Assembly: GCA_020058965.1 (NCBI GenBank)
Contig: JAGVCY010000253.1
Span: 1-16,952 of the forward strand
Length of the DNA: 16,952 bases
Direction: 5' to 3'
DNA from: Candidatus Omnitrophota bacterium
GTDB taxonomy: Bacteria > Omnitrophota > Gorgyraeia > 2-02-FULL-51-18 > JAGOUK01
Positions 169 to 16,952 of this stretch are shown here, in pieces. The position numbers and the translations under genes were made by a program. The notes beneath the pieces were generated by a model, which worked only from the letters and a program-made list of their open reading frames with translations, was not told the origin of the DNA and did no database searches. Position 1 is the first letter of the stretch. Each line of letters starts with the position of its first letter.

Positions 169-504
169 TCATCGACGAAGGGAGTTTTGGATGTCTTGAA
201 GTTCTTTGAGACGGGTGCGTTCTTCGCGCAGGTCCTGCTGGCGCTCGAATTCTTTTTGCCGAACGAACTGAAACGCTTTGTCGCCCAATTCTTCGAGCGA
301 TTCAAGATTCAGATCGGCAACGGGTGTGGATCCGAGAATTTTGGCCGCTTCCTCAGGATCCTCATCCAAGGCGTCTTGAATATACTCGATGGCTTCCTGC
401 CGTCGTTGATCCTCGGTGGGTTCATCAGCGCGAACAACGAGACTGAACGGCGCATTCAAGAGAAGCGTCAACACAACCCCGCTTAAAAAAACTTTAATTT
501 TCAT
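169..504 (-). CDS. Small secreted or periplasmic protein, unknown function
   Basis: A 111-residue protein I do not recognise. The chosen ATG at 504 follows a purine-rich GCAGGGG about 7 bases upstream; a longer reading to 546 would put 14 residues in front of an otherwise perfect signal peptide. Residues 1-26 have Lys at 2 and 4, then a hydrophobic core (VFLSGVVLTLLL) and a possible cleavage site near VVRA-DEP. The mature part is highly charged and looks mostly helical, with an acidic first half (residues 27-75) and a Glu/Arg/Lys-rich end (82-111) that could form a coiled coil. It starts 25 bases after the glycosyltransferase stop and is probably the last gene of the cluster. The function is unknown. 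Confidence 0.75.
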   Translation of the reverse strand: MKIKVFLSGVVLTLLLNAPFSLVVRADEPTEDQRRQEAIEYIQDALDEDPEEAAKILGSTPVADLNLESLEELGDKAFQFVRQKEFERQQDLREERTRLKELQDIQNSLRR

Positions 505-529
505 ATAAGCCCCTGCAAAACTAGTCCAA

Positions 530-1705
530 TCACAACCAAGTGGCATCCATTTGCTTAAGCGGATAGCTGGTGCCGCGCCAAATCACCGCTTGTCGCCGCC
601 AGGTGTCCCACACGGAGACCATAATAACATATGCAAAAAGCAGAAGCCCCGCCGGCATCGCCAACCCCAAAAAGATGTTTTGAGGCACCTTGGAGCCAAA
701 GCCAAATTGCAGCAGAACCATCGAACCAAAACTAACGCCTGCCGCCGTCCATACACCCGCCGAACCGCCCACAATCACGCACAGCACCGGCAGGATGGCG
801 CACACGCCGATTCCCGCGGCTCCCGCGATCGCCAGATCTAGGCGGTAATTGAAGCCCCTGAACGAATTTTTGCGGATGCTGTTGAGCATTCCCTTGAATC
901 CGACAAACCATCGCACGCTCACCGCGTCTTCACCCGAACCAAGCATCAGCCGCAGCCCCGCGTCCTTTACCCGTTTGGCGAGCATCACATCATCCGCGAT
1001 GTCCATGGCGATCGCGCGGTGCTCGCCGATCTGTTGATACGCACGGCGGCGAATCATATTGAACGCGCCGACTCCGGCAAAGCCGTTGAGTCGGCGGAAC
1101 CGCGAGGCCCAGGGCTGGAAGCGCACCGCGAAGAGAGTTCCAAACGCGCGGTAAAAAAGATTTTCGACGGCGCCGTTCAGGACCACATGCGGTAGAAGCG
1201 CTAAGTGGTCGGCGGCGTAACAATTCGCCGTTTTGAGCGCGCGACGCACCGTGTCTTTTTGAAAAATCACATCCGCGTCGGTGAACAAGAGCCATTCTCC
1301 GGTGGCGCAATCGGCTCCGCGCTGCAGCGCGTGGTTCTTGCCGAGCCAACCGTGCGGTAAATCCCGGACCATCACGCGCTTGAGCCGTGGATCCCCGGAC
1401 AACTCATCCAGCGCGTTTCCACTTCCGTCGGTTGACCGGTCGTCGACAGCGATCACTTCGATCGAACCGTGATCCTGGGCGAGCACACTTCGGCAGGCGT
1501 CTAGAATGCCTGCTTTTTCATCGCGATAAGCAAAAATAATACTGACCTTGACTGTGGGGAAGCTATTTTCATCCGGCTCAACCCGCGGCATGCGACGGAT
1601 AAAAAGCGCTCCCAAGACGGTGTGCGCGAGGCAGAGCGCCCAAAAGGCCGCTCCAGCCCACGCCGCTATGAGGAACAAATCGGCTGTGTTCAAATCGACT
1701 CTCAT
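530..1705 (-). CDS. Family 2 glycosyltransferase, membrane-associated
   Basis: A 391-residue GT2 (GT-A fold) enzyme, expected to transfer a sugar from a nucleotide donor to a lipid or envelope acceptor at the cytoplasmic face. An N-terminal membrane helix (residues 8-35) precedes the catalytic domain. That domain shows VDDR at 87-90, the metal-binding DAD at 143-145, a DD pair at 238-239 in the acceptor/base region, and SVRW at 263-266 in the place of the QxxRW motif. Two or three C-terminal helices follow (about 291-312, 317-335 and 345-366), and then WRGTSYPL. The layout resembles the HpnB/CrtQ-like group of GT2 enzymes acting on isoprenoid lipids, but no hopanoid or carotenoid genes are visible, so the acceptor is open. 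The ATG at 1705 lies 2 bases after the preceding stop codon, which suggests translational coupling. A longer frame to 1798 overlaps the preceding gene and adds non-conserved residues, so it was not chosen. Confidence 0.9.
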   Translation of the reverse strand: MRVDLNTADLFLIAAWAGAAFWALCLAHTVLGALFIRRMPRVEPDENSFPTVKVSIIFAYRDEKAGILDACRSVLAQDHGSIEVIAVDDRSTDGSGNALDELSGDPRLKRVMVRDLPHGWLGKNHALQRGADCATGEWLLFTDADVIFQKDTVRRALKTANCYAADHLALLPHVVLNGAVENLFYRAFGTLFAVRFQPWASRFRRLNGFAGVGAFNMIRRRAYQQIGEHRAIAMDIADDVMLAKRVKDAGLRLMLGSGEDAVSVRWFVGFKGMLNSIRKNSFRGFNYRLDLAIAGAAGIGVCAILPVLCVIVGGSAGVWTAAGVSFGSMVLLQFGFGSKVPQNIFLGLAMPAGLLLFAYVIMVSVWDTWRRQAVIWRGTSYPLKQMDATWL

Positions 1706-1707
1706 AA

Positions 1708-3222
1708 TTAGCTTTTGGCGGGTTCGGCCGCCCGACGGACAATTTTGCTCAGCATACCGCCAAAAACATACGCGTGGAGAGGAGACACCAATGCCCAATA
1801 CAATAATCCCCAGAGGCCTTTGGGTCTAAATAGTGCTCGTTGGCAGAACCGTACGCTACCGTCCGGTTGCGGCTGAATCTCAAATTGCAGAACGGCTTCG
1901 CCGGGGAGCTTCATTTCGGCACGGAGCGAAAGCCGCCGGCCCTTCTGACAATCGATCACACGCCAAAAGTCCAGCGCGTCACCCGGAAGAAGCTCGTGCG
2001 CGTTGCGGCGACCCCGACGCAGACCCACGCCGCCGAACAAGCGGTCCATGATGCCGCGAAGCCGCCACAAAAAATCCGCGTGATACCAGCCGGTCGTCCC
2101 GCCGATGGACTCGATCACGGACCACAGCCGCGCCGGATCCACGCTTGTCACCAGCGACCGCTCATCGCGCAGAAGTGTCCCGCCGGCCCACTCGGGATCG
2201 CCTGGCGCGATCGCTTCCACCTCGCCGGATCCGCCCGCGTCGGTCCATCGCGTCACAACTTCGTCAGATAATGTTTTTTGGATCGCGAGCCGTATCGCCT
2301 CGCGGACGGGGATCAAATGTTGAGGAATGATCGCACGGATGCGGTTTTCTTGGCAGACGACTGGATTCTTGAGGCCTTCGGCAAGAGGCCGCGCGATCGT
2401 AGCGGGAACGGGCGTGACCAAATGGATCCAGTACGAGCTCAGACGCGGAGTCAAAACCGGCACGGGAACGATCCAGCGCTTGGGAAGTCCGGCTTCCTCC
2501 GCGTAGACGCGCATCAACTCCTCATAGGTGACGACATCGGGACCTCCGATATCAAAGCGTTCGCCGGCGGTCGAGGGCTGCGCGAGACAGCCGGCGAGGT
2601 ATTCGAGTACATTTCGGACGGCGATCGGTTGAGAAGGGGTGTGCACCCATTTGGGTGTGATCATGCAGGGAAGGCGGTCGACCAGGTATCGCAGAATTTC
2701 GAACGACGCACTGCCAGAGCCAATGATCATCGCCGCGCGTAAAATAGTGACGGGCGTTTTGCCCGACTGAAGCATCCGCTCCACTTCCCGGCGAGACTTC
2801 AGATGCTCGCTCAAATCGGTGCGGTCTTCACCCAACCCTCCGAGATAAATGATCCGCCCGAGTCCGGCCTCAGCCGCGGCATCGCGCATCGTCTTCGCCG
2901 CCTCCAGATCCGAGTGACGATAATCGCGTGTCCCCGGCAGCATCGAATGCACCAGGTAATAACCGGCGCCGCATCCGCGGCAAGCTTCCACCAGCGATGC
3001 GTGGTCCAGAACATTTCCAACGAAGATCTCAAGATTGGGATGCGTCGACCAGGGGCGGTTGCGCGCTTTTTTTTCGGAACGGACAAGCGCGCGCACGCGG
3101 TACCCGCGCTCCAACAAGAGCGGAATGAGCCGGCCTCCGATATACCCGGTCGAGCCGGTAACTAGAATGCGCGAAGAATCGGGGGAGGTGATGTCGGATG
3201 ACGGAGCCGTCGGAGCGTTCAT
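1708..3222 (-). CDS. SDR-family NAD(P)-binding protein with DUF2867-type C-terminal domain (YbjT-like)
   Basis: A 504-residue protein. After about 17 non-conserved residues an atypical SDR Rossmann domain begins (ILVTGSTGYIGGRL, glycine motif at 23-29) and runs to about residue 300. It includes a YLGGLGED segment and a later PVTILRAAMIIGSGSASFE stretch typical of NmrA/YbjT-like proteins that bind a dinucleotide but often lack a full Ser-Tyr-Lys triad. Residues about 335-500 match the DUF2867 (SRPBCC-like ligand pocket) tail, ending in LWGLLYWALVSPLHAYVF. The overall size is close to that of E. coli YbjT. The substrate is unknown. The ATG at 3222 is preceded directly by an in-frame GTG at 3225, and either could be used; the gap to the upstream stop is 4 or 1 bases. 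DUF2867-type SDRs are known from some light-induced lipid-modification clusters, which fits the LOV regulator upstream, but this link is inference. Confidence 0.88.
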   Translation of the reverse strand: MNAPTAPSSDITSPDSSRILVTGSTGYIGGRLIPLLLERGYRVRALVRSEKKARNRPWSTHPNLEIFVGNVLDHASLVEACRGCGAGYYLVHSMLPGTRDYRHSDLEAAKTMRDAAAEAGLGRIIYLGGLGEDRTDLSEHLKSRREVERMLQSGKTPVTILRAAMIIGSGSASFEILRYLVDRLPCMITPKWVHTPSQPIAVRNVLEYLAGCLAQPSTAGERFDIGGPDVVTYEELMRVYAEEAGLPKRWIVPVPVLTPRLSSYWIHLVTPVPATIARPLAEGLKNPVVCQENRIRAIIPQHLIPVREAIRLAIQKTLSDEVVTRWTDAGGSGEVEAIAPGDPEWAGGTLLRDERSLVTSVDPARLWSVIESIGGTTGWYHADFLWRLRGIMDRLFGGVGLRRGRRNAHELLPGDALDFWRVIDCQKGRRLSLRAEMKLPGEAVLQFEIQPQPDGSVRFCQRALFRPKGLWGLLYWALVSPLHAYVFGGMLSKIVRRAAEPAKS

Positions 3223-3226
3223 CACA

Positions 3227-3883
3227 CTATTCTACAGCTTGCGGCTCTTCCACCAACCGCGCGGACAAAAAACCCGCGACTTGCGCCGGCTGAAAAGGCC
3301 ACACATACCGGAAGCGGATGTGGGGATATTTGGTTTTTTCACTTGCGATCAGATCGGGGATCTCGCGGTCGGAATGGCTTCCGCCACGGATCATCATGGG
3401 GGTGATCACGCGGATCTCAACGGCGCCGCGCGCGGCGGCCTCCGCAAAAGCGGCCGGCACATCCGGATCACAGAATTCGTTGAAGCACACGATCACCGGT
3501 TCCTTGAGCAGGACCTCGAGTTCGCGGCCCAATTCTATCGACGAATGATGGAACGCGTCATTCTTGGGATTGCGCGGCCAAGACCGCATCCGGGACTCGA
3601 GTTCACGGTACCGCAAGAATGAGGCAGAGGCCTCCGGAGATCCCGCGTGGGAACCGTTGTGATGCTGCGCATGGAGTCTAAAGAATTCTTTCCGGTCACT
3701 TTCCGAAAAATCCTTAGGCGGCATTCCATGACTGATTAGGACGGTGACCCGACTCCGCGCGGCGGAAGGTTTTGCCGCGACAGGAGCGGACTTTCCAATC
3801 GAGTAAAAATAATGAAAAAAGCCATAAACCATGCATATCAAAAATACAAAAATTCCCAGGATTAAAACAATGACATTTATCAT
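3227..3883 (-). CDS. Membrane-anchored CbiX/SirB-like chelatase-fold protein
   Basis: A 218-residue protein. Residues 3-27 form one very hydrophobic helix; a short linker follows, and then a domain resembling sirohydrochlorin/cobalt chelatases of the CbiX/CfbA/SirB type. The first strand VTVLISHGMP carries His52. VIVCFNEFCDPDVPAAFAEA (residues 130-149) matches the strand with a conserved Glu (E136) and the following helix. TPMMIRGGSHSDREIPDL carries the second metal-site His (H170), with YVWPFQPAQVAGFL near the end. The two His are 118 residues apart, which is more than in compact CbiXS enzymes, because of a His-rich insertion around 68-115. Classic CbiX proteins are soluble and cytosolic, so the N-terminal anchor is unusual. 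The start overlaps the stop of the preceding small gene as ATGA. Metal insertion into a tetrapyrrole is possible but unproven; it may only bind metal or porphyrin. Confidence 0.75.
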   Translation of the reverse strand: MINVIVLILGIFVFLICMVYGFFHYFYSIGKSAPVAAKPSAARSRVTVLISHGMPPKDFSESDRKEFFRLHAQHHNGSHAGSPEASASFLRYRELESRMRSWPRNPKNDAFHHSSIELGRELEVLLKEPVIVCFNEFCDPDVPAAFAEAAARGAVEIRVITPMMIRGGSHSDREIPDLIASEKTKYPHIRFRYVWPFQPAQVAGFLSARLVEEPQAVE

Positions 3884-4050
3884 GACTTCGCTCCAGACAT
3901 TTTAAGGTAGGTGGCATAACCAAAAATGGACGGCACCCATATTCCGACAAACAACCCTTCTTCTCTATATCCCAAAAACCACAGCGACACCGAAAGCCCG
4001 AACGAGATCAGCGCAGCAAGATGAACGAGAAAATCCAAACGATGACTCAT
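3880..4050 (-). CDS. Small membrane protein, 56 residues, unknown function
   Basis: The ATG at 4050 is preceded by a perfect AGGAGG with 4 bases spacing, which decides this start over a longer frame extending to 4110 inside serC. The product has a short N-terminus (MSHRLDF), one long hydrophobic stretch (residues 8-26), a charged REE turn at 29-31, and a second hydrophobic stretch (GLFVGIWVPSIFGYATYL, 32-49). It could therefore be a two-helix hairpin. It begins 13 bases after the serC stop and ends in a 4-base ATGA overlap with the CbiX-like gene, so the two membrane proteins are likely made together. Proteins of this size with a GLFVGIWVPS-like segment are familiar to me as unnamed bacterial proteins; no function can be given. 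Confidence 0.8.
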   Translation of the reverse strand: MSHRLDFLVHLAALISFGLSVSLWFLGYREEGLFVGIWVPSIFGYATYLKMSGAKS

Positions 4051-4063
4051 AACGCCTCCTTTA

Positions 4064-5197
4064 TTAAGCATTTTTTTTGGCAAATGCGGACATGAACTCG
4101 GCCAGCTCACCCACCGTGGTCAGGCTGACCGCGTTGTAAATCGACGCGCGCAATCCGCCCGCGGAGCGATGACCCTGCAATCCGATGAATCCCGCCGCTT
4201 CCGACTCCTGCACAAAGCGCTTCTCGAGATTTTCATCACCGCCGCGGATATGAAAAATCACATTTTGGGTCGAGCGATCCTTTTGATGAACGGGGGAGGT
4301 GTAAAAACCGCTGCGTTCGATCAAGTCGTACAGCATGATGGACTTCATCTGCGACTCGCGTTCAAACTTGGCGACCCCGCCCTGATCGCGCACCCATCGG
4401 AGCATCAGTCCCATCACATAAACGGCAAACGCCGGCGGTGTGTTCAAGCGTGAGTCCGCCTGGGCATGCTCCTTGTAGCTGAGCATGGCGGGCAATCGAA
4501 CGGGTGATCGATCCAGCAAATCCCGCCGGAGTACCGCCAGCGTTACGCCCGCCGCGCCCATATTTTTTTGAGCACTGGCAAAAAAAAGCCCGAATCGGCC
4601 GGCCGGGATGCGGCGCGAGAGAATTTCGGAAGTCATGTCGGCGACCAACGGCACGGCTCCGGTGTCCGGAAAAGAGCGGTACTGAGTTCCGTAAATGGTG
4701 TTGTTGGCGCAAATATGAACATAGGACGCATCCCCCGAAAAAGTGCCCGGCCCCATGACAGGAATGTACGAAAAATTATCCTGACTGGATGACGCGACCA
4801 CGCGGCCGGATCCGATTTTTTCGATATCCTGCAAAGCCATTTTGGTCCAGACATCGGTGTGGACCACTTCGGCCGGTCGTCCTTCGATGAGCAGGTTCAT
4901 CGGCGCCATCACGAACTGCATCCTGGCTCCGCCCGCCAATAGCAGCACCGCATGCGTTTGGGGAATATCGAGAAGATCCCGCAGGAGTTTTTCAACACGG
5001 GCTTGAAGCTCATCATAGTGAGCGGTCCGATGACCGATCTCCAGTATGGAGGCACCTGAATTTTTGTAAACCGGCAGATCTTCCTTGATCTGTTCCAACA
5101 CTTCGACGGGCAGGGCCGCCGGTCCCGCGCCAAAATTCCAGGAGCGTACGGAATGCTGAGTGACGGAAAAAGGTGTTGATTGCGTGCGGGTGGTCAT
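4064..5197 (-). CDS. serC: Phosphoserine aminotransferase
   Basis: A 377-residue PLP-dependent class V aminotransferase that converts 3-phosphohydroxypyruvate and glutamate to phosphoserine, the second step of serine synthesis, and may also serve pyridoxine synthesis. The N-terminal signature WNFGAGPAALPVEVLEQ (20-36) and SILEIGHR (50-57) are typical. LLAGGARMQF (87-96) lines the PLP phosphate site. NTIYGTQ occurs at 166-172, VADMTSEILSRRI at 185-197, and the Schiff-base lysine is K211 in SAQKNMGAAG. HRSAGGLRASIYNA at the C-terminus is the family's substrate-binding end. About 15 extra residues precede the usual start. An AGGAAA stands about 9 bases before the ATG. It sits inside an operon-like run of unrelated membrane and lipid-type genes, 13 bases after the hydrolase; no serA is nearby. 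Confidence 0.96.
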   Translation of the reverse strand: MTTRTQSTPFSVTQHSVRSWNFGAGPAALPVEVLEQIKEDLPVYKNSGASILEIGHRTAHYDELQARVEKLLRDLLDIPQTHAVLLLAGGARMQFVMAPMNLLIEGRPAEVVHTDVWTKMALQDIEKIGSGRVVASSSQDNFSYIPVMGPGTFSGDASYVHICANNTIYGTQYRSFPDTGAVPLVADMTSEILSRRIPAGRFGLFFASAQKNMGAAGVTLAVLRRDLLDRSPVRLPAMLSYKEHAQADSRLNTPPAFAVYVMGLMLRWVRDQGGVAKFERESQMKSIMLYDLIERSGFYTSPVHQKDRSTQNVIFHIRGGDENLEKRFVQESEAAGFIGLQGHRSAGGLRASIYNAVSLTTVGELAEFMSAFAKKNA

Positions 5198-5210
5198 TTT
5201 ATTTTATTTC

Positions 5211-5981
5211 CTATGTTTGAAGCGACGGAACGGGACTGTCACTCGATGATGTGTGGATCCAGTCAAAGATCAACGATTGTAAGAGGTCACCGTGTGTCCT
5301 AAAAAGATCTTCGGCATGGCCTCCTCCCTCAATAGCTCGCAATGTCTTGGGTGTTGTCGCGGCGTCATACATTTGGACGCTGTGACGCGGATAAACAATA
5401 TGGTCGTTCGTACCATGAATGAAGAGCAGGGGCGTTTCTTCGATCTCGGCCAACGCATCCAAGGCTGTCTGCTTGCGCGACCAAATGGACCCGATCCTGC
5501 AACCCGCGCCCAGCTCCATCGATCTCCGCCCGGAATCGATCGACGAACGATCCCACCAGTTGCATTCGATCGCTTCGTGCCGCATGGGCGAACCCACGCA
5601 CACAATGCCGGCAAAGATCGGCCACCGGGACTGAAGTAGGAGGGCGATCGTTCCGCCGTAAGAAAATCCCAGAGCCCAAACTTGAGGGTGATGGGAAGCC
5701 GCGTACAAAGCCGCGCATTCAAGATCCGCCGTTTCTTTGGCAGAAAAGTGATACCGTCCGCCGGAATCACCGTGCCCGCGGAAGTCCAGCGCGATGACAT
5801 CAAATCGTTTTTTGAGAGCATGGGCTATCGACTGAAAAGTACGCGTGCGCTTGCTCTGAAAAAATCCCGGAGCCAACAGAATGACATCCGGTCGTCCCGA
5901 AAACCAATGCTCCACCGCGATGGATGTCCCGTCCGATGCATTCAAGCGCAGATCGCGATGTTCGAATGTGGGCTCAAGCAT
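5211..5981 (-). CDS. Alpha/beta hydrolase
   Basis: A 256-residue serine hydrolase of the alpha/beta fold, probably cytosolic as no signal peptide or membrane helix is seen. Strand motif VILLAPGFFQSKRTRTF (33-49) forms the oxyanion region. ALDFRGHGDSGG (64-75) is the usual second landmark. The nucleophile elbow is GFSYGG with Ser107, and the triad is completed by Asp193 (HGTNDHIV) and His222 (GGGHAED). Residues 133-175, Trp- and Arg-rich, form a short cap. The substrate is unknown; an ester or acyl chain is likely. The start at 5981 overlaps the preceding membrane-protein stop by 8 bases (ATGCTTGA) with a GAGG about 9 bases upstream; a frame extending to 6026 lies fully inside that gene and was not chosen. 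Confidence 0.9.
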   Translation of the reverse strand: MLEPTFEHRDLRLNASDGTSIAVEHWFSGRPDVILLAPGFFQSKRTRTFQSIAHALKKRFDVIALDFRGHGDSGGRYHFSAKETADLECAALYAASHHPQVWALGFSYGGTIALLLQSRWPIFAGIVCVGSPMRHEAIECNWWDRSSIDSGRRSMELGAGCRIGSIWSRKQTALDALAEIEETPLLFIHGTNDHIVYPRHSVQMYDAATTPKTLRAIEGGGHAEDLFRTHGDLLQSLIFDWIHTSSSDSPVPSLQT

Positions 5982-6762
5982 GGTTGGGGGCCTCGCACGC
6001 CAGCCACTTCCGAGGAATTCCAACATTGGTGCAGACGGAGCGGGTGATCAGATTGCCTCCCGCCCACGACAGATCCAGCGCCAAGAGCGCCCTGGCCAGG
6101 TCGTGCCGTCGGCCGATCCACGGCAAGAACAACCATCCTAAAAGCGAAAAACAGGTAAAAGCAAAAATGGTCACCGTCAGCGGTCCGACGGTTTCGGTCC
6201 CCGCGCCCGGAACGCTCAGCGCGCAGGCAAAGGCCGCTTGATTCCAAAGGATCGTGACGATGAGCCGAGCGCGCTCCGGTCCCTTTTTGAGCGCGCCGAT
6301 GCTTTTAAAAGTAAAGATGCGAAATTGGTAGCCATCAATGAAGCGTGATAATTCCGTCCTGGAAAGGTACATGTAAACGAGGATGACGGTGAACAGAGTC
6401 ATTGCCCCGACATCGCCCGCGACACGGCCGCCGCAATGGATCAGCACCATAAAGGAAGGGAGAAGGATCGACTGAAGCCCCACGCCGCGGGACCAAGATG
6501 CCGCAAATTTGCGGAAGCCGTGGCGGACGCGTCCAAATTTGCGTCCCGTGACATGGCTCAAAATATCGAAGGGAAGGGTGTACAGCGCCGAAAGGGCGAC
6601 GAGGCAAACCGAAACCGTAAAACAGATCGCGACCCCTGAACGCGCGCCGATCTCCGAGAATCTCTGAGGGATCTCAAATGCCAGCGCTAGTCCGGCGAGA
6701 GCAAATATTCCTCCCGCGCAGCTGATGCCCAATCCTTTTCTGATCCAACCGTAGGTGCTCAT
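5974..6762 (-). CDS. Six-helix integral membrane protein, unknown family
   Basis: A 262-residue protein I cannot place. Hydrophobic segments at about 12-30, 43-65, 92-112, 117-134, 166-182 and 188-213 suggest six helices. A basic loop with TGRKFGRVRHGFRKF (about 72-86) lies between helices two and three, and there is a final soluble tail. It could be a transporter-like or CAAX-type membrane protein, but no catalytic motif such as EExxxR or HExxH is visible. ATG at 6762 was chosen because GGAGGC lies 9 bases upstream; the frame could begin at TTG 6777, which would remove that signal. It is the first gene of the eight-gene minus-strand cluster, directly behind the TATAGGT-repeat promoter and the LOV-LuxR gene, so it is a likely direct target of that regulator. 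Confidence 0.82.
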   Translation of the reverse strand: MSTYGWIRKGLGISCAGGIFALAGLALAFEIPQRFSEIGARSGVAICFTVSVCLVALSALYTLPFDILSHVTGRKFGRVRHGFRKFAASWSRGVGLQSILLPSFMVLIHCGGRVAGDVGAMTLFTVILVYMYLSRTELSRFIDGYQFRIFTFKSIGALKKGPERARLIVTILWNQAAFACALSVPGAGTETVGPLTVTIFAFTCFSLLGWLFLPWIGRRHDLARALLALDLSWAGGNLITRSVCTNVGIPRKWLACEAPNHA

Positions 6763-6784
6763 CGTCGTTGCCTCCAATGAGAGG

Positions 6785-6813
6785 AGGATACGGCATAGGA
6801 GCGGTACCTACAA
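6785..6813 (-). promoter_or_regulatory. Sigma70-type promoter of the eight-gene cluster
   Basis: On the minus strand TTGTAG (6808-6813) and TATCCT (6785-6790) are separated by exactly 17 bases (four matches of six in each box). A start near 6778 would give a leader of about 15-20 bases that still contains the GGAGGC of the first gene. The -35 box overlaps the last of a series of TATAGGT-like elements (here TGTAGGT), as expected where an activator touches RNA polymerase. Confidence 0.5.
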
Positions 6814-6855
6814 TGGCCGATTAATACCTATAAAACACCTATAATAAATAGGTGT
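6806..6855 (-). promoter_or_regulatory. TATAGGT repeat cluster with palindrome, candidate operator
   Basis: Reading the minus strand, TATAGGT occurs at 6837-6843 and 6826-6832 (11-base step), and TGTAGGT at 6806-6812 (20 bases further). All three have the same orientation and lie close to one and two helical turns apart. The distal copy is also half of a perfect inverted repeat, ACACCTAT (6835-6842) and ATAGGTGT (6848-6855), around a 5-base AATAA spacer. It lies between the LOV-LuxR gene and the first gene of its neighbouring cluster. No long U-tract follows, so it does not look like a terminator. Confidence 0.5.
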
Positions 6856-6872
6856 AATCAGTATACGGGTAA

Positions 6873-7763
6873 TCAGGATTTGAGCGTTTGGAGGTACGAG
6901 GCGAGATTGACCGGGTTGCGGGAGATGCGGAGTTTTTTGCGGATGGAGTTGCGCTGGTTCTCGATCGTCGCGGTTGAGGACTTGAGCAGTTGCGCGATCT
7001 CCTTGGTTCCGAGGCCGCTCTTGATCAAGTTGCAGATCTCGATCTCTCGGGGCGAAAGTCGGTGCAGCGGCCGGCTCAGGCGCTCACCGAACGGAGAGGT
7101 GAGGTCCCGGAGGTTGGTTTCGAGCGCGTTCAGCGCTTTTTGACTCTCACGCCCTGCGGAGCGGCCGATCTTTTTCATGAGCGGCAGGATCAGTCGGTCG
7201 ACATTGGCGAGAATATTGTTCTGGATGGAACGCTTTTCCAATTCCAACTGGCTCAAGACTTCCTTCAACGCGGAATTTTTGCGGTCGAGTTCATCCGTTC
7301 TCTCCCGGACCAGCCGCTCCAGATCTTTTTGATACGACTTGAGCTTGATCTCCGCTTCACGCTGGGCGGTGACATCGGTCTGGATTCCGATGTAATGGGT
7401 GAGGCGGTCCCCGCCATCAAAAACTGGCGCCAGGCGCAACTCATTCCAAAAGCGAGTTCCGTCCTTCCGGTAGTTGGCCAGGACCACGGTACACGGCCGG
7501 CGGTCCTTGAGCGCTTTGCGAATTATCCGCAGCTCCGGTTGGCTGTGATCGTTTCCTTGGAGGAACCGGCAGTTTTTCCCGAGCGAATCGGCTGGGGAAA
7601 ATCCGGTGATCGTCTGGAACGCGCGGCTGACATAAATGAGGGGAAAATCCGGCTTGCGCGCGTCGGCGATCACAATCGCGCACGAAGCCGCATTGAGTGC
7701 CGCACCGAGCGTTTCAGCTCGAAGATCTTTTAAGGCCCCTAATAAGGAGTCGGCGGGTTTCAT
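6873..7763 (-). CDS. LOV-domain blue-light receptor fused to LuxR-type HTH transcription factor
   Basis: A 296-residue one-component regulator. The PAS/LOV core spans about 20-133 and keeps the full flavin signature: GKNCRFLQG with the photo-adduct Cys65 plus Arg66 and Gln69; NYRKDG with Asn97; FWNELRLAPV with Asn107; and YIGIQTDVT with Gln128. All are residues known to bind FMN or form the cysteinyl adduct, so photoactivity is expected. A charged coiled-coil linker (about 134-225) follows. A GerE/LuxR helix-turn-helix then runs from 233 to 285 (RLSPREIEICNLIKSGLGTK, then TATIENQRNSIRKKLRI). Architecture is LOV-linker-HTH, with a longer linker than in compact LOV-HTH proteins of the EL222 type. 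It ends about 110 bases before the eight-gene cluster. Start ATG 7763 has only a weak GGAAA-like signal. Target genes and light response are inference. Confidence 0.93.
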   Translation of the reverse strand: MKPADSLLGALKDLRAETLGAALNAASCAIVIADARKPDFPLIYVSRAFQTITGFSPADSLGKNCRFLQGNDHSQPELRIIRKALKDRRPCTVVLANYRKDGTRFWNELRLAPVFDGGDRLTHYIGIQTDVTAQREAEIKLKSYQKDLERLVRERTDELDRKNSALKEVLSQLELEKRSIQNNILANVDRLILPLMKKIGRSAGRESQKALNALETNLRDLTSPFGERLSRPLHRLSPREIEICNLIKSGLGTKEIAQLLKSSTATIENQRNSIRKKLRISRNPVNLASYLQTLKS

Positions 7764-7816
7764 TCAAGCCATTTTCCGTCAGTTTGGTCGAAAGTCAAGC
7801 CATGAGGAGTAAGAAG

Positions 7817-7890
7817 TGCGCCCGGTAGGAGTCGAACCTACAACCTTCTGATCCGTAGTCAGACGATCTATCCAATTGATCTACGGGCGC
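7817..7890 (-). tRNA. tRNA-Arg (anticodon ACG)
   Basis: A 74-nt cloverleaf on the minus strand. The acceptor stem GCGCCCG pairs with CGGGCGC, and the discriminator is A. The D-loop has AATTGGATA. The anticodon stem TCTGA/TCAGA encloses CTACGGA, giving anticodon ACG (wobble A is normally converted to inosine). The T-arm is GTAGG TTCGACT CCTAC. CCA is not encoded, unlike in tRNA-Ser of this window, so it must be added enzymatically. The LOV-LuxR start codon lies 53 bases downstream. Confidence 0.97.
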
Positions 7891-14235: not shown

Positions 14236-15054
14236 TTAACTTAGGGAAGCGACCTTCCAGTTGCGGGTAATCATATTTTGATCGGCGCGAACGCTCAGCT
14301 GATCGCCGATTTTGGCGTTTTCCAGCTTGGCCTGTTGCTTAAAATCATTGTCCCAGACAATGGTTTGCTCAGTGGCTTTGCCGGGCATGTTGGTGGTATA
14401 AAGAACGATGAAGTTCTTATCGCTGTTGATCTGCCTGACTTCTCCGGTCAGCAGGCGGATATCGTTCGTCCGCATTGCCTCGATCGGACCGGCGATAGAA
14501 CTGACCTTCCAATTCTTCGTGATCACATTCTGATCCGCCGTCAGCGTGATGCTGTCGCCGATGCTGGCTTTGTTGAGCTTATCCGTGACACTCTGGTTTT
14601 CCGTGTCCCACACGATATGCTGCTCGATCAGGATTCCCTTGTCATCCATGTCCTTGGTGCGGAGCAACATCGTGTGGTTGGAGCGATCGATCGCGATAAT
14701 CTCGCCGCTGACAGTCCTGCCGTCGGTGCGTAGAAGCGCTTTTTCTGCGATCGCCAAAGCACCGCCGACCGAAGTTACTTTCCAGCTGCGTGAAATAGGA
14801 TTCTGGTCCGCATCCACGGTCACGATCTGGCCCATGCGCGCATTTTTGAGCTGCTGGATCTCCGCCAAGCTCTCATCCCAAACGATTTTGTAGCTTTGAA
14901 TGCCGCTCGAATTGTCCGAATTGGAAGCCAGTGTCATCGAGTTGCTGTTCTGATCGATGCTGACGACCTTTCCGATCAATGTTTCCGCGTGAACCGTTCC
15001 AGCCAACCCTATAAAAAGGGCTGCAATCGAAGCGACCAGCATGTTCTTATTCAT
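14236..15054 (-). CDS. Secreted protein of three tandem 85-90 residue repeats
   Basis: A 272-residue protein with a clear signal peptide (MNKNMLVASIAALFIGLAGT, cleavage likely after VHA at 23). The mature part is three diverged repeats. Each has a G-x-V/I-x-x-I-(D/N) strand start (27-34, 117-123, 204-210), an IVWD motif (57-60, 147-150, 232-235), a GD/GQ strand, an ADQN motif (82-85, 173-176, 257-260) and a WKV-x-S end (91-95, 182-186, 266-270). The alternating hydrophobic strands suggest small beta barrels, possibly OB-like as in DUF5666-type secreted proteins. There are no cysteines and no catalytic pattern, so a structural or ligand-binding role in the periplasm is likely. AGGAGA lies 7 bases before the ATG. 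It ends in the strong terminator and appears to be transcribed alone. I do not recognise the family. Confidence 0.85.
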   Translation of the reverse strand: MNKNMLVASIAALFIGLAGTVHAETLIGKVVSIDQNSNSMTLASNSDNSSGIQSYKIVWDESLAEIQQLKNARMGQIVTVDADQNPISRSWKVTSVGGALAIAEKALLRTDGRTVSGEIIAIDRSNHTMLLRTKDMDDKGILIEQHIVWDTENQSVTDKLNKASIGDSITLTADQNVITKNWKVSSIAGPIEAMRTNDIRLLTGEVRQINSDKNFIVLYTTNMPGKATEQTIVWDNDFKQQAKLENAKIGDQLSVRADQNMITRNWKVASLS

Positions 15055-15212: not shown

Positions 15213-16757
15213 TTACCACTCGGTAGGGAAATAATCCTTTAAGAATTTTCCGCACCAATGTTTCCCCGTATTGATCCCGTCAAAAAAGGGATCGCACACA
15301 CGCGCCGCCCCGTCCACAATATCGAGGGGCGGTTGAAAATCATGGACGTCCTGCTTGAACTTGGAAAGATGCGCGGGATCCTCATCGGTCACCCAGCCGG
15401 TATCCACGGCGTTCATGTAAATACCGTTCTTCACCAAACTGCCGGCGGCGGTATGCGTCAGCATATTGAGCGCCGCCTTTGCCATATTGGTGTGGGGATG
15501 ACGGTCGATTTTATTCGTCGCGTGAAACTTGCCTTCCATCGCAGTGACGTTGACCATATGCTTTTTGCCCGTAAAATCCCGCCGCATCATCGGTTCCAAC
15601 GAATTGCACAGAACAAAAGGGGCGATGGCATTCACCAGCTGCAGCTCGAACATCTCCGCGGTCGCGATCTCGCCCAGGCGCAAACGCCAACTATTTATTG
15701 TGCGCAGATCCACTTGCTGCAGATCCACATCGAGCTTGCCTACAGGAAAAACCTCATCGGCTTTGAGCGAAACGTCATGCGGATAGGGGATCTGAGAAAG
15801 CGCCGCAGAGGCCCTCAGCCCGATGCCCGGGGCCTTTCCCATCCAGCTGATGGCCAAAGCGTCCACGGCCTGCAAATTGGATGTCGAATACGAAACAAGT
15901 TCTCGTTTGCAGTCATCATATTTCTGGAGCAGTTGCCGCGCATCCTCCGGAAGGTCCGAAAGAGGCAGCTGCTCATTGGCCATTAAGTGCGCGTAAAATC
16001 CAGCGGGGCGACGGACGGTTTGCGCCGCGTTGTTGATCAAGATATCCAAACGAGTGTAACGCTGTTGGATGAAGTTGCAGAATATTTCAACGCTCGGCGT
16101 ATGTCGCAGGTCCAACCCATAGATATGAAGTCTATTTTTCCACTGCCCAAAGTCCTTTTCGCGCGCGTAGCGCAGGGCCGAATCGACCGGAAACCGCGTC
16201 GTCGCGATCACGGTCGCCCCGGCGCGCAGCATCATCAGCGTCGCCTGGTATCCGATCTTCAGACGTGATCCGGTGATGAGCGCGATCTGACCCGACAGAT
16301 CCGCCGTCTGAAAGCGCTTTTTGTAATTCAACTCGGCGCATTTTTGGCACATCGAATCGTAAAAAAAATGAAGCTTGTTGTACGGAGCATGGCAGATATA
16401 GCAGTTACGTGTGGAATTGAGCTCACCGTTTTGGAGCAAAGCTCCCGCATCGACCCCCAGCAAACGTTCCGGCGCTTCAAAAACCTGCGTATCGCGCGCC
16501 GCCCGAATGCCGGTGGTTGCGCGAGCCTGCCGATCTTGCCGAAGGGATTTTTGGCGGAGACTTTTGATGTACCGATTACGCCGCAAGCGCAGGTCTTCGG
16601 AGCTCGGTCGGGCGATTTGCCCCGTCACTTTTTCGAGCTCCGCGCGTTCCTCCGCCTTTAAATTCACCCATACCTCCGGATGATCGATCAGGTAACGGAG
16701 CAGTTCAACGCTGGTTTTGATTTTTTCTGAAAGGTTGGTTTCTTTTATAGGTTCCAT
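15213..16757 (-). CDS. SDR-family oxidoreductase-like protein with N-terminal four-cysteine finger
   Basis: A 514-residue protein. Residues 1-110 are charged, helical and basic around 55-80. A CxxC-x14-CxxC module (Cys119, Cys122, Cys137, Cys140, with HFFYDSM between) should bind zinc. The SDR domain starts at about 155 with [10 protein letters not shown] (162-171) as a variant glycine motif, then [16 protein letters not shown] and [11 protein letters not shown] (241-251). The catalytic part reads [11 protein letters not shown] and [13 protein letters not shown]: Lys427 is kept but the usual Tyr four residues earlier is Thr423, and the Ser position is Thr405. This layout matches a distinct group of long SDR proteins with a cysteine-rich N-terminus, known to me also from fungi and plants, of unknown substrate. 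ATG 16757 was chosen, 13 bases after the stop of the upstream gene; a TTG-started extension to 16835 overlaps that gene. No clear Shine-Dalgarno is present. Confidence 0.85.
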
Positions 16758-16770
16758 AGCAATAAATATT

Positions 16771-16952
16771 TTATATTTTTCGGCTGTCGTAGGCCCAATG
16801 GAGCACGGCTTGACGATGACGGGGGCGGCAGCCAACCTCTCCCGGGAAGCAATTGTTTTTTATTTGCACGATATGCCGTTTGATCGCGAGCCAACGCTTG
16901 ATCTGCCAATCATCCACTTCGGCAAGCCGGCGCCCTTGATAGTACCGGCAAT
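16771..16952 (-). CDS. 3' end of an unrecognised gene, cut by the window edge
   Basis: An open minus-strand frame enters from the right edge and ends with TAA at 16771-16773, giving the last 59 residues of a protein. It reads like real coding sequence: Trp-, Arg- and His-rich, with [17 protein letters not shown], then [17 protein letters not shown] and HWAYDSRKI at the end. The other minus-strand frames over the right edge are broken by stops or lack protein-like composition. It lies 13 bases upstream of the zinc-finger SDR gene in the same direction, so the two are probably co-transcribed. No family is recognised; two or three cysteines and several histidines could allow metal binding, but that is a guess. 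Confidence 0.6.

Follow-up and report, generated by a model that had tools for sequence, protein, structure and literature searches.

A LOV-LuxR receptor with its own operator as a likely blue-light activator of photo-oxidative defence in Omnitrophota

EL222 of Erythrobacter litoralis (PDB 3p7n and 8a5r) is a LOV regulator of 222 residues with the DNA consensus RGNCYWWRGNCY (PMC10521638). In Pseudomonas mendocina, the pmlR1 region encodes a photolyase, a short-chain dehydrogenase/reductase (SDR), a flavin adenine dinucleotide (FAD) oxidoreductase and UfaM, and expression of pmlR1, phrB and ufaM is higher in light (PMC9758184). The set confirmed or predicted for RpoE2-ChrR of Shewanella oneidensis includes a periplasmic glutathione peroxidase with the ferrochelatase HemH2, a photolyase, a cyclopropane fatty acid (CFA) synthase and an SDR (PMC4336711), and the RpoE regulon table of Rhodobacter sphaeroides contains cfaS, phrA, an SDR and the fasciclin RSP_1409 (PMC7074977). 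In R. capsulatus, singlet oxygen raises CbiX by ~3 log2 units, and the authors of that study suggest that it lowers free iron and porphyrin photosensitisers (PMC7074977). In the uncultured phylum Omnitrophota, light responses seem undescribed among the matches listed in a literature with few subscription papers, and no light-sensing passage was found by a passage search of a phylum-wide genome paper (PMC10066038). Here we analyse a contig of 16,952 nucleotides from a Candidatus Omnitrophota bacterium (JAGVCY010000253.1; the whole stretch is called the window), in which the gene for a LOV-LuxR regulator adjoins a cluster of eight genes. We consider it likely that LOV-LuxR responds to blue light by directly activating a partly novel operon for photo-oxidative defence.

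LOV-LuxR (6873..7763, on the minus strand, as are all window features described below) is a one-component regulator of 296 residues, with a LOV core at 29-130, a helix at 132-202, a further helix at 205-225 and a LuxR helix-turn-helix (HTH) domain at 231-293, where the GerE/LuxR family matches residues 235-281 (Pfam PF00196, 34.8 bits, cut-off 23.5). Asn64, Cys65, Arg66, Gln69, Asn97, Asn107 and Gln128 are invariant in all 17 aligned LOV-LuxR proteins, which were chosen from the rows of a profile search. The adduct cysteine lies within N-C-R-F-x-Q and the flavin contacts are conserved, the features that on sequence mark a photoactive LOV domain. This architecture recurs: 49 of the first 50 profile-search rows are PAS plus GerE proteins of 258-343 residues, and the few named organisms among them are Omnitrophica and one Oceanicoccus. 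By both fold and profile searches the LOV half is nearest to the short LOV proteins of Pseudomonas (44-46% identity to PpSB2-LOV), with EL222 lower in the lists. A structural model built on the 17-protein alignment has a mean predicted local distance difference test score (pLDDT) of 87 and a predicted template modelling score (pTM) of 0.50, and because of the latter the placement of the domains is uncertain. The modelled helix of ~70 residues suggests signalling via a coiled coil, as is thought for LOV histidine kinases.

Between the receptor gene and the cluster lies a gap of 110 bases (6763-6872) with an operator, a predicted promoter and a Shine-Dalgarno sequence. The operator, ACACCTATTTATTATAGGTGT (6835..6855), is a perfect palindrome of two 8-base arms with a 5-base spacer, identified from the palindrome in the gap and cross-genome comparison, and its core form is ACACCTA-N7-TAGGTGT. 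It is found in four genomes, namely that of the window (G000; 1.68 Mb, 72% complete), the other genome of its genus (G001), a relative within the class (G033) and a phylum relative from another class (G412), which together represent three lineages and two classes. With three mismatches or fewer, the pattern has a single match in the window, compared with a shuffle mean of 0.01. The core site is also present in the corresponding gap of G001 and G033, and in each of G000, G001 and G033 this is the one exact copy; a further copy in G033 differs at two positions and lies 45 bases upstream of the start codon (ATG) of the LOV gene. The pattern derived from these three genomes was then tested on G412, whose 10,235-base contig has one exact copy, against a chance expectation of ~4e-5, ~0.8 kb upstream of its LOV-LuxR gene. 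Across 384 genomes of the phylum, and with two mismatches allowed, an extended pattern, ACACCTAN6ATAGGTGTTYTATRG, occurs in these four, always with zero mismatches and within 1 kb of a LOV-LuxR gene, and in none of the other 380, and its reversed control has no match in the 384. Because the extended pattern was built from those four genomes, its presence in them is by construction, while its absence from the other 380 and the earlier match in G412 are not. An 11-base direct repeat (TTATAGGTGTT/TTATAGGTATT, 6823..6844) overlaps the right arm of the operator and may provide a third half-site; by eye it is clear in the window and G412 and weak in G001 and G033. We did not count weaker operator-like sites in G000 and G033 as regulon members, because the reversed control was commoner, nor a two-mismatch site in G033 that falls within a long frame.

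The spacing between operator and promoter is likewise conserved. Regions of 200 bases were scored with a generic, hand-entered sigma70-like matrix, and in all four genomes the top promoter has its -35 element at position 43 and its -10 element at position 66, numbered from the first operator base. In the window these are TTGTAG (6808..6813) and TATCCT (6785..6790), separated by a 17-base spacer; the other pairs are TTGTGA/TATGCT, TTGGCA/GATCAT and TTGTCT/GATACT. The same offset in four genomes was seen in 0 of 20,000 shuffled-flank sets, and G000, G033 and G412 taken alone likewise never agreed. Transcription of the window cluster is predicted to start near 6778, 16 bases 5' of the ATG at 6762, with the Shine-Dalgarno GGAGG (6771..6775) in between, and the operator centre would then lie near -67, an activator position. 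The sign of control could instead be the opposite, with LOV-LuxR binding and repressing in the dark state and light releasing it, an outcome like that of SB-LOV/LitR. The LOV half is closest to the Pseudomonas SB-LOVs, which are dimers both in the dark and in light and which in P. mendocina relieve LitR repression, and a coiled-coil LOV dimer need not be light-dependent in its DNA binding. However, the distance from operator to -35 is 21 bases in all four genomes, a spacing that gives no direct block to polymerase and is usual for activators, and we regard repression in the dark as unlikely.

The genes that follow the operator differ between lineages. G001 keeps the order LOV-LuxR, membrane protein and hydrolase (74%, 80% and, over 80 residues, 51% identity) up to the end of its contig, a conservation that on sequence marks the association as more than chance. 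In G033, with open reading frames (ORFs) delimited from the first possible start, an operon with gaps of 15 bases or fewer follows LOV-LuxR on one strand. It encodes in order a glutathione peroxidase with a signal peptide (by eye), an SDR fused to DUF2867, an FAD amine oxidoreductase, a DUF1365-CMAS protein, a desaturase with a chalcone-isomerase-like part, a DUF1295 protein, a CMAS protein, TspO (partial, ~65 of 145 model positions) and a DNA photolyase; judged by these families, it is a photo-oxidative-type gene set behind the same receptor and operator. In G412 the operator is followed by a fasciclin frame, a small secreted CGGG peptide and then LOV-LuxR itself. A constant operator with changing downstream genes is the pattern that a regulator controlling a regulon of its own would be expected to show. 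Small secreted peptides with an ACGG stretch adjoin LOV-LuxR in both G412 (L199:4057-4185, +) and G033 (L029:16288-16446, +), which belong to different classes. G412 also has an SDR of 531 residues near LOV-LuxR on the opposite strand (L199:1280-2875), 50% identical to a 540-residue SDR of the window with a Cys-rich NCYIC...MCQKC stretch (15213-16835). The latter is possibly another member of the light set; the 117 bases between it and the contig end contain no operator.

In a first search of 59 genomes, where every candidate was scored, full-length LOV-LuxR matches were found in G000, G001 and G033. These three score far above all others among 384 genomes of the class, and a search of 384 genomes of the phylum added G412; up to six candidates per genome were scored in both. 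In the phylum search, whose profile included two rows without the cysteine, relatives lacking it score close behind (G373, E 1.6e-110). One related ORF per genome was inspected for the Cys motif in 27 genomes (all 24 of the phylum search and 3 of the class search), and NCRFLQ is present in only 4, those that carry the operator. The runner-up proteins of G373, G464, G292, G336 and G328 lack the Cys motif and were rejected as LOV-LuxR; the ORF of G230 is truncated and its LOV part cannot be judged; and a match in G287, an 833-residue frame covered mainly over the LOV half, was set aside. G412's family (27 genomes) yielded no further member, and G033's order contains no second genome. A contig profile scan of 523 relatives returned LOV domains in other architectures, with no full LOV-LuxR match and no operator at any of the best 80 loci of a longer list. 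In IMG/VR the operator had no exact match, and a single weak LOV relative turned up. The Oceanicoccus-named homologue prompted a search, again with up to six candidates per genome, of 341 genomes of Hahella's order, which gave none at E 1e-90 and carries no evidential weight. A frame in G035 (L033:5524-5937, +; listed as 191 residues) has a LOV-like stretch 38% identical to the window LOV with one TAA inside the match, and could be a short LOV protein.

The Cys-less relatives bear on whether LOV-LuxR senses light at all. Flavin LOV domains are capable of a redox response, and the protein might chiefly sense redox state or oxygen through its flavin and govern an oxidative-stress operon without light control. 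Besides the related phylum proteins without the cysteine, such a role would fit the anoxic environments from which Omnitrophota have been reported (PMC8542988). Yet all 17 aligned proteins keep the adduct cysteine and the contact residues, and it is the cysteine form of the protein that coincides with the operator. The G033 operon moreover includes a photolyase, an enzyme that works solely in light. We therefore think a redox sensor improbable.

The window cluster begins with a multi-helix membrane protein of no known family (5974..6762, start 6762), which among 334 class genomes was found in two of one genus, both with LOV-LuxR; its model, with a mean pLDDT of 40, is too poor for use. Next come an alpha/beta hydrolase (Pfam; 5211..6026, start 6026 or 5981) and serC, for the 3-phosphoserine/phosphohydroxythreonine transaminase (4064..5197; Pfam class-V aminotransferase, NCBIfam NF003764 above cut-off). 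A role of serC in singlet-oxygen quenching, by way of vitamin B6, was considered and discarded as speculative. A small membrane protein of 56 residues from its ATG (3880..4050, start 4050) precedes a CbiX/SirB-like protein (3227..3883, start 3883) with a stretch, hydrophobic by eye, at its N-terminus. The latter matches Pfam CbiX with 43 bits against a cut-off of 22, scores 26 and 24.9 bits against the CfbA-type families NF002090 and NF033198 (cut-off 120 bits), and has an H...IP stretch in common with sirohydrochlorin ferrochelatase chains. Although its chelatase match is partial, the role suggested for CbiX would be a fair model for it. An NmrA-type SDR fused to DUF2867 follows (Pfam; 1708..3225), 43% identical to the SDR of the G033 operon, with strong matches (E below 1e-40) in 7 of the 59 genomes and weak SDR matches only in 35 more. 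In G005, where LOV-LuxR was not found, the DUF2867-SDR follows a TspO gene (L059:8489-10482, +). The last two genes encode a family 2 glycosyltransferase (GT2; Pfam; 530..1705), HpnB-like but below the cut-off of that family (TIGR03469, 141.7 bits against 379), and a small secreted protein with a signal peptide by eye (169..504). Neither this protein nor the two membrane proteins match any Pfam or NCBIfam family above cut-off.

Gene starts, like signal peptides, were picked by eye, and the successive gaps are -53 (or -8), 13, 13, -4, 1, 2 and 25 bases. The initial annotation, made from the sequence without database searches, had described six flavin-contact residues and a LuxR C-terminus in the receptor and eight same-strand genes with overlaps or gaps of at most 25 bases; the 17-protein alignment, the GerE match, the ORFs and their gaps all agree with it. 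Its identities for the hydrolase, serC, CbiX, DUF2867-SDR and GT2 genes are likewise backed by Pfam or NCBIfam. It also placed the cluster directly downstream of the regulator: the two do adjoin on one strand, but the cluster does not run on from the regulator gene, as the gap with operator and promoter intervenes. The LOV-LuxR gene has a tRNA-Arg(ACG) gene (7816-7890) 52 bases upstream, and a tRNA-Ser(GGA) gene (6-95) lies just downstream of the last gene of the cluster. Elsewhere in the window, 14236-15054 encodes a protein of 272 residues with a signal peptide and, by eye, three similar repeats of ~80 residues, without a Pfam family.

Taken together, these features suggest that a one-protein blue-light sensor probably turns on an adjoining operon whose products shield the cell envelope against damage by light. 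Blue light would form a Cys65-flavin adduct in the intact pocket, and the change would reach the LuxR domains by way of the long helix, probably a coiled coil in the dimer. The LuxR domains would bind ACACCTA-N7-TAGGTGT near -67 and, if the geometry indicates the polarity correctly, recruit RNA polymerase to the sigma70-like promoter, from which all eight genes would be transcribed. Their products may curb photosensitisation by porphyrins and act in the remodelling or repair of envelope lipids, with putative contributions from the DUF2867-SDR, the CbiX-like chelatase-type protein, the HpnB-like glycosyltransferase, the lipase-like hydrolase, SerC and the three small or membrane proteins. A light-dependent envelope, lipid or porphyrin stress had been thought to fit the parts, and the photo-oxidative-type operon of G033 supports it.

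Several observations weigh against this interpretation. The response to light is a prediction from sequence. The extended operator pattern derives from the four genomes themselves, with only three independent lineages in a sample of limited genome completeness, and at up to three mismatches the reversed control outnumbers the core pattern (57, 36 and 119 matches vs 23, 13 and 30), so only near-exact sites are meaningful. LOV-LuxR could have been overlooked elsewhere, given the limit of six candidates per genome and the cut G230 frame. In G412, the fasciclin ATG coincides with the predicted transcript start, and therefore either the transcript is leaderless or that start is wrong; the fasciclin frame (L199:3587-4060, +) also has an in-frame TGA at 3695-3697, which may reflect decay, recoding or an assembly error. 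The window operon lacks a photolyase, a CFA synthase and a peroxidase in this incomplete genome, and its photo-oxidative gene types are the DUF2867-SDR and the CbiX-like protein only; CbiX, in turn, is not induced in R. sphaeroides (PMC7074977). Lastly, 5 of the 59 genomes have the DUF2867-SDR in a different context and without LOV-LuxR. This last point, with the usual housekeeping role of serC, would also suit a chance neighbourhood, in which the palindrome is the site of a different regulator and the cluster consists of eight unrelated housekeeping genes. That explanation is very improbable, since operator and receptor coincide in four genomes, no operator turned up in the remaining 380 of the sample, and the downstream genes vary. 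The link between LOV-LuxR and the cluster drawn in the initial annotation thus gains support from an operator seen only in genomes with this receptor; a search for the cluster without a LOV regulator bears this out for the first membrane protein, within one genus, but not for the DUF2867-SDR.

A wider proposal, which we hold only tentatively, is that LOV-LuxR, a coiled-coil protein that recognises an operator of its own, represents a new type of one-component activator under blue light and takes the place of RpoE-ChrR or LitR in the photo-oxidative defence of some Omnitrophota, and that the window operon is a specialised photoprotective one whose new activities might include sequestering tetrapyrroles at the membrane and glycosylating lipids. 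With receptor, operator and promoter defined, light control in Omnitrophota would become testable in Escherichia coli, and the three could provide a compact optogenetic part whose operator is unlike that of EL222. They would also tie little-known genes, including those for DUF2867 proteins, to a probable defence against light damage.

Like EL222, LOV-LuxR combines an N-terminal LOV domain and a C-terminal HTH in one protein, but it is longer, has the ~70-residue helix and a further helix in place of a short linker between the two, and has a LOV half that scores nearer to SB-LOV. None of the four operator regions contains the EL222 consensus RGNCYWWRGNCY, and none of the four 21-base operators contains its half-site. 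The Pseudomonas SB-LOV proteins provide the closest solved LOV domains, and the gene content of the pmlR1 region is much like that of the G033 operon; UfaM is kin to CFA synthases. SB-LOV and class II LitR, however, are two proteins, the latter a MerR-type repressor with TGTACA-N12-TGTACA sites (PMC9758184), whereas LOV-LuxR is one protein with another operator. With the RpoE-ChrR regulons of Rhodobacter and Shewanella, and also Vibrio, the gene types in common are photolyase, CFA synthase, SDR, periplasmic glutathione peroxidase with a ferrochelatase paralogue, and fasciclin, as well as CbiX in R. capsulatus. These systems sense singlet oxygen or other reactive oxygen through an anti-sigma factor, whereas the predicted input of LOV-LuxR is light itself.

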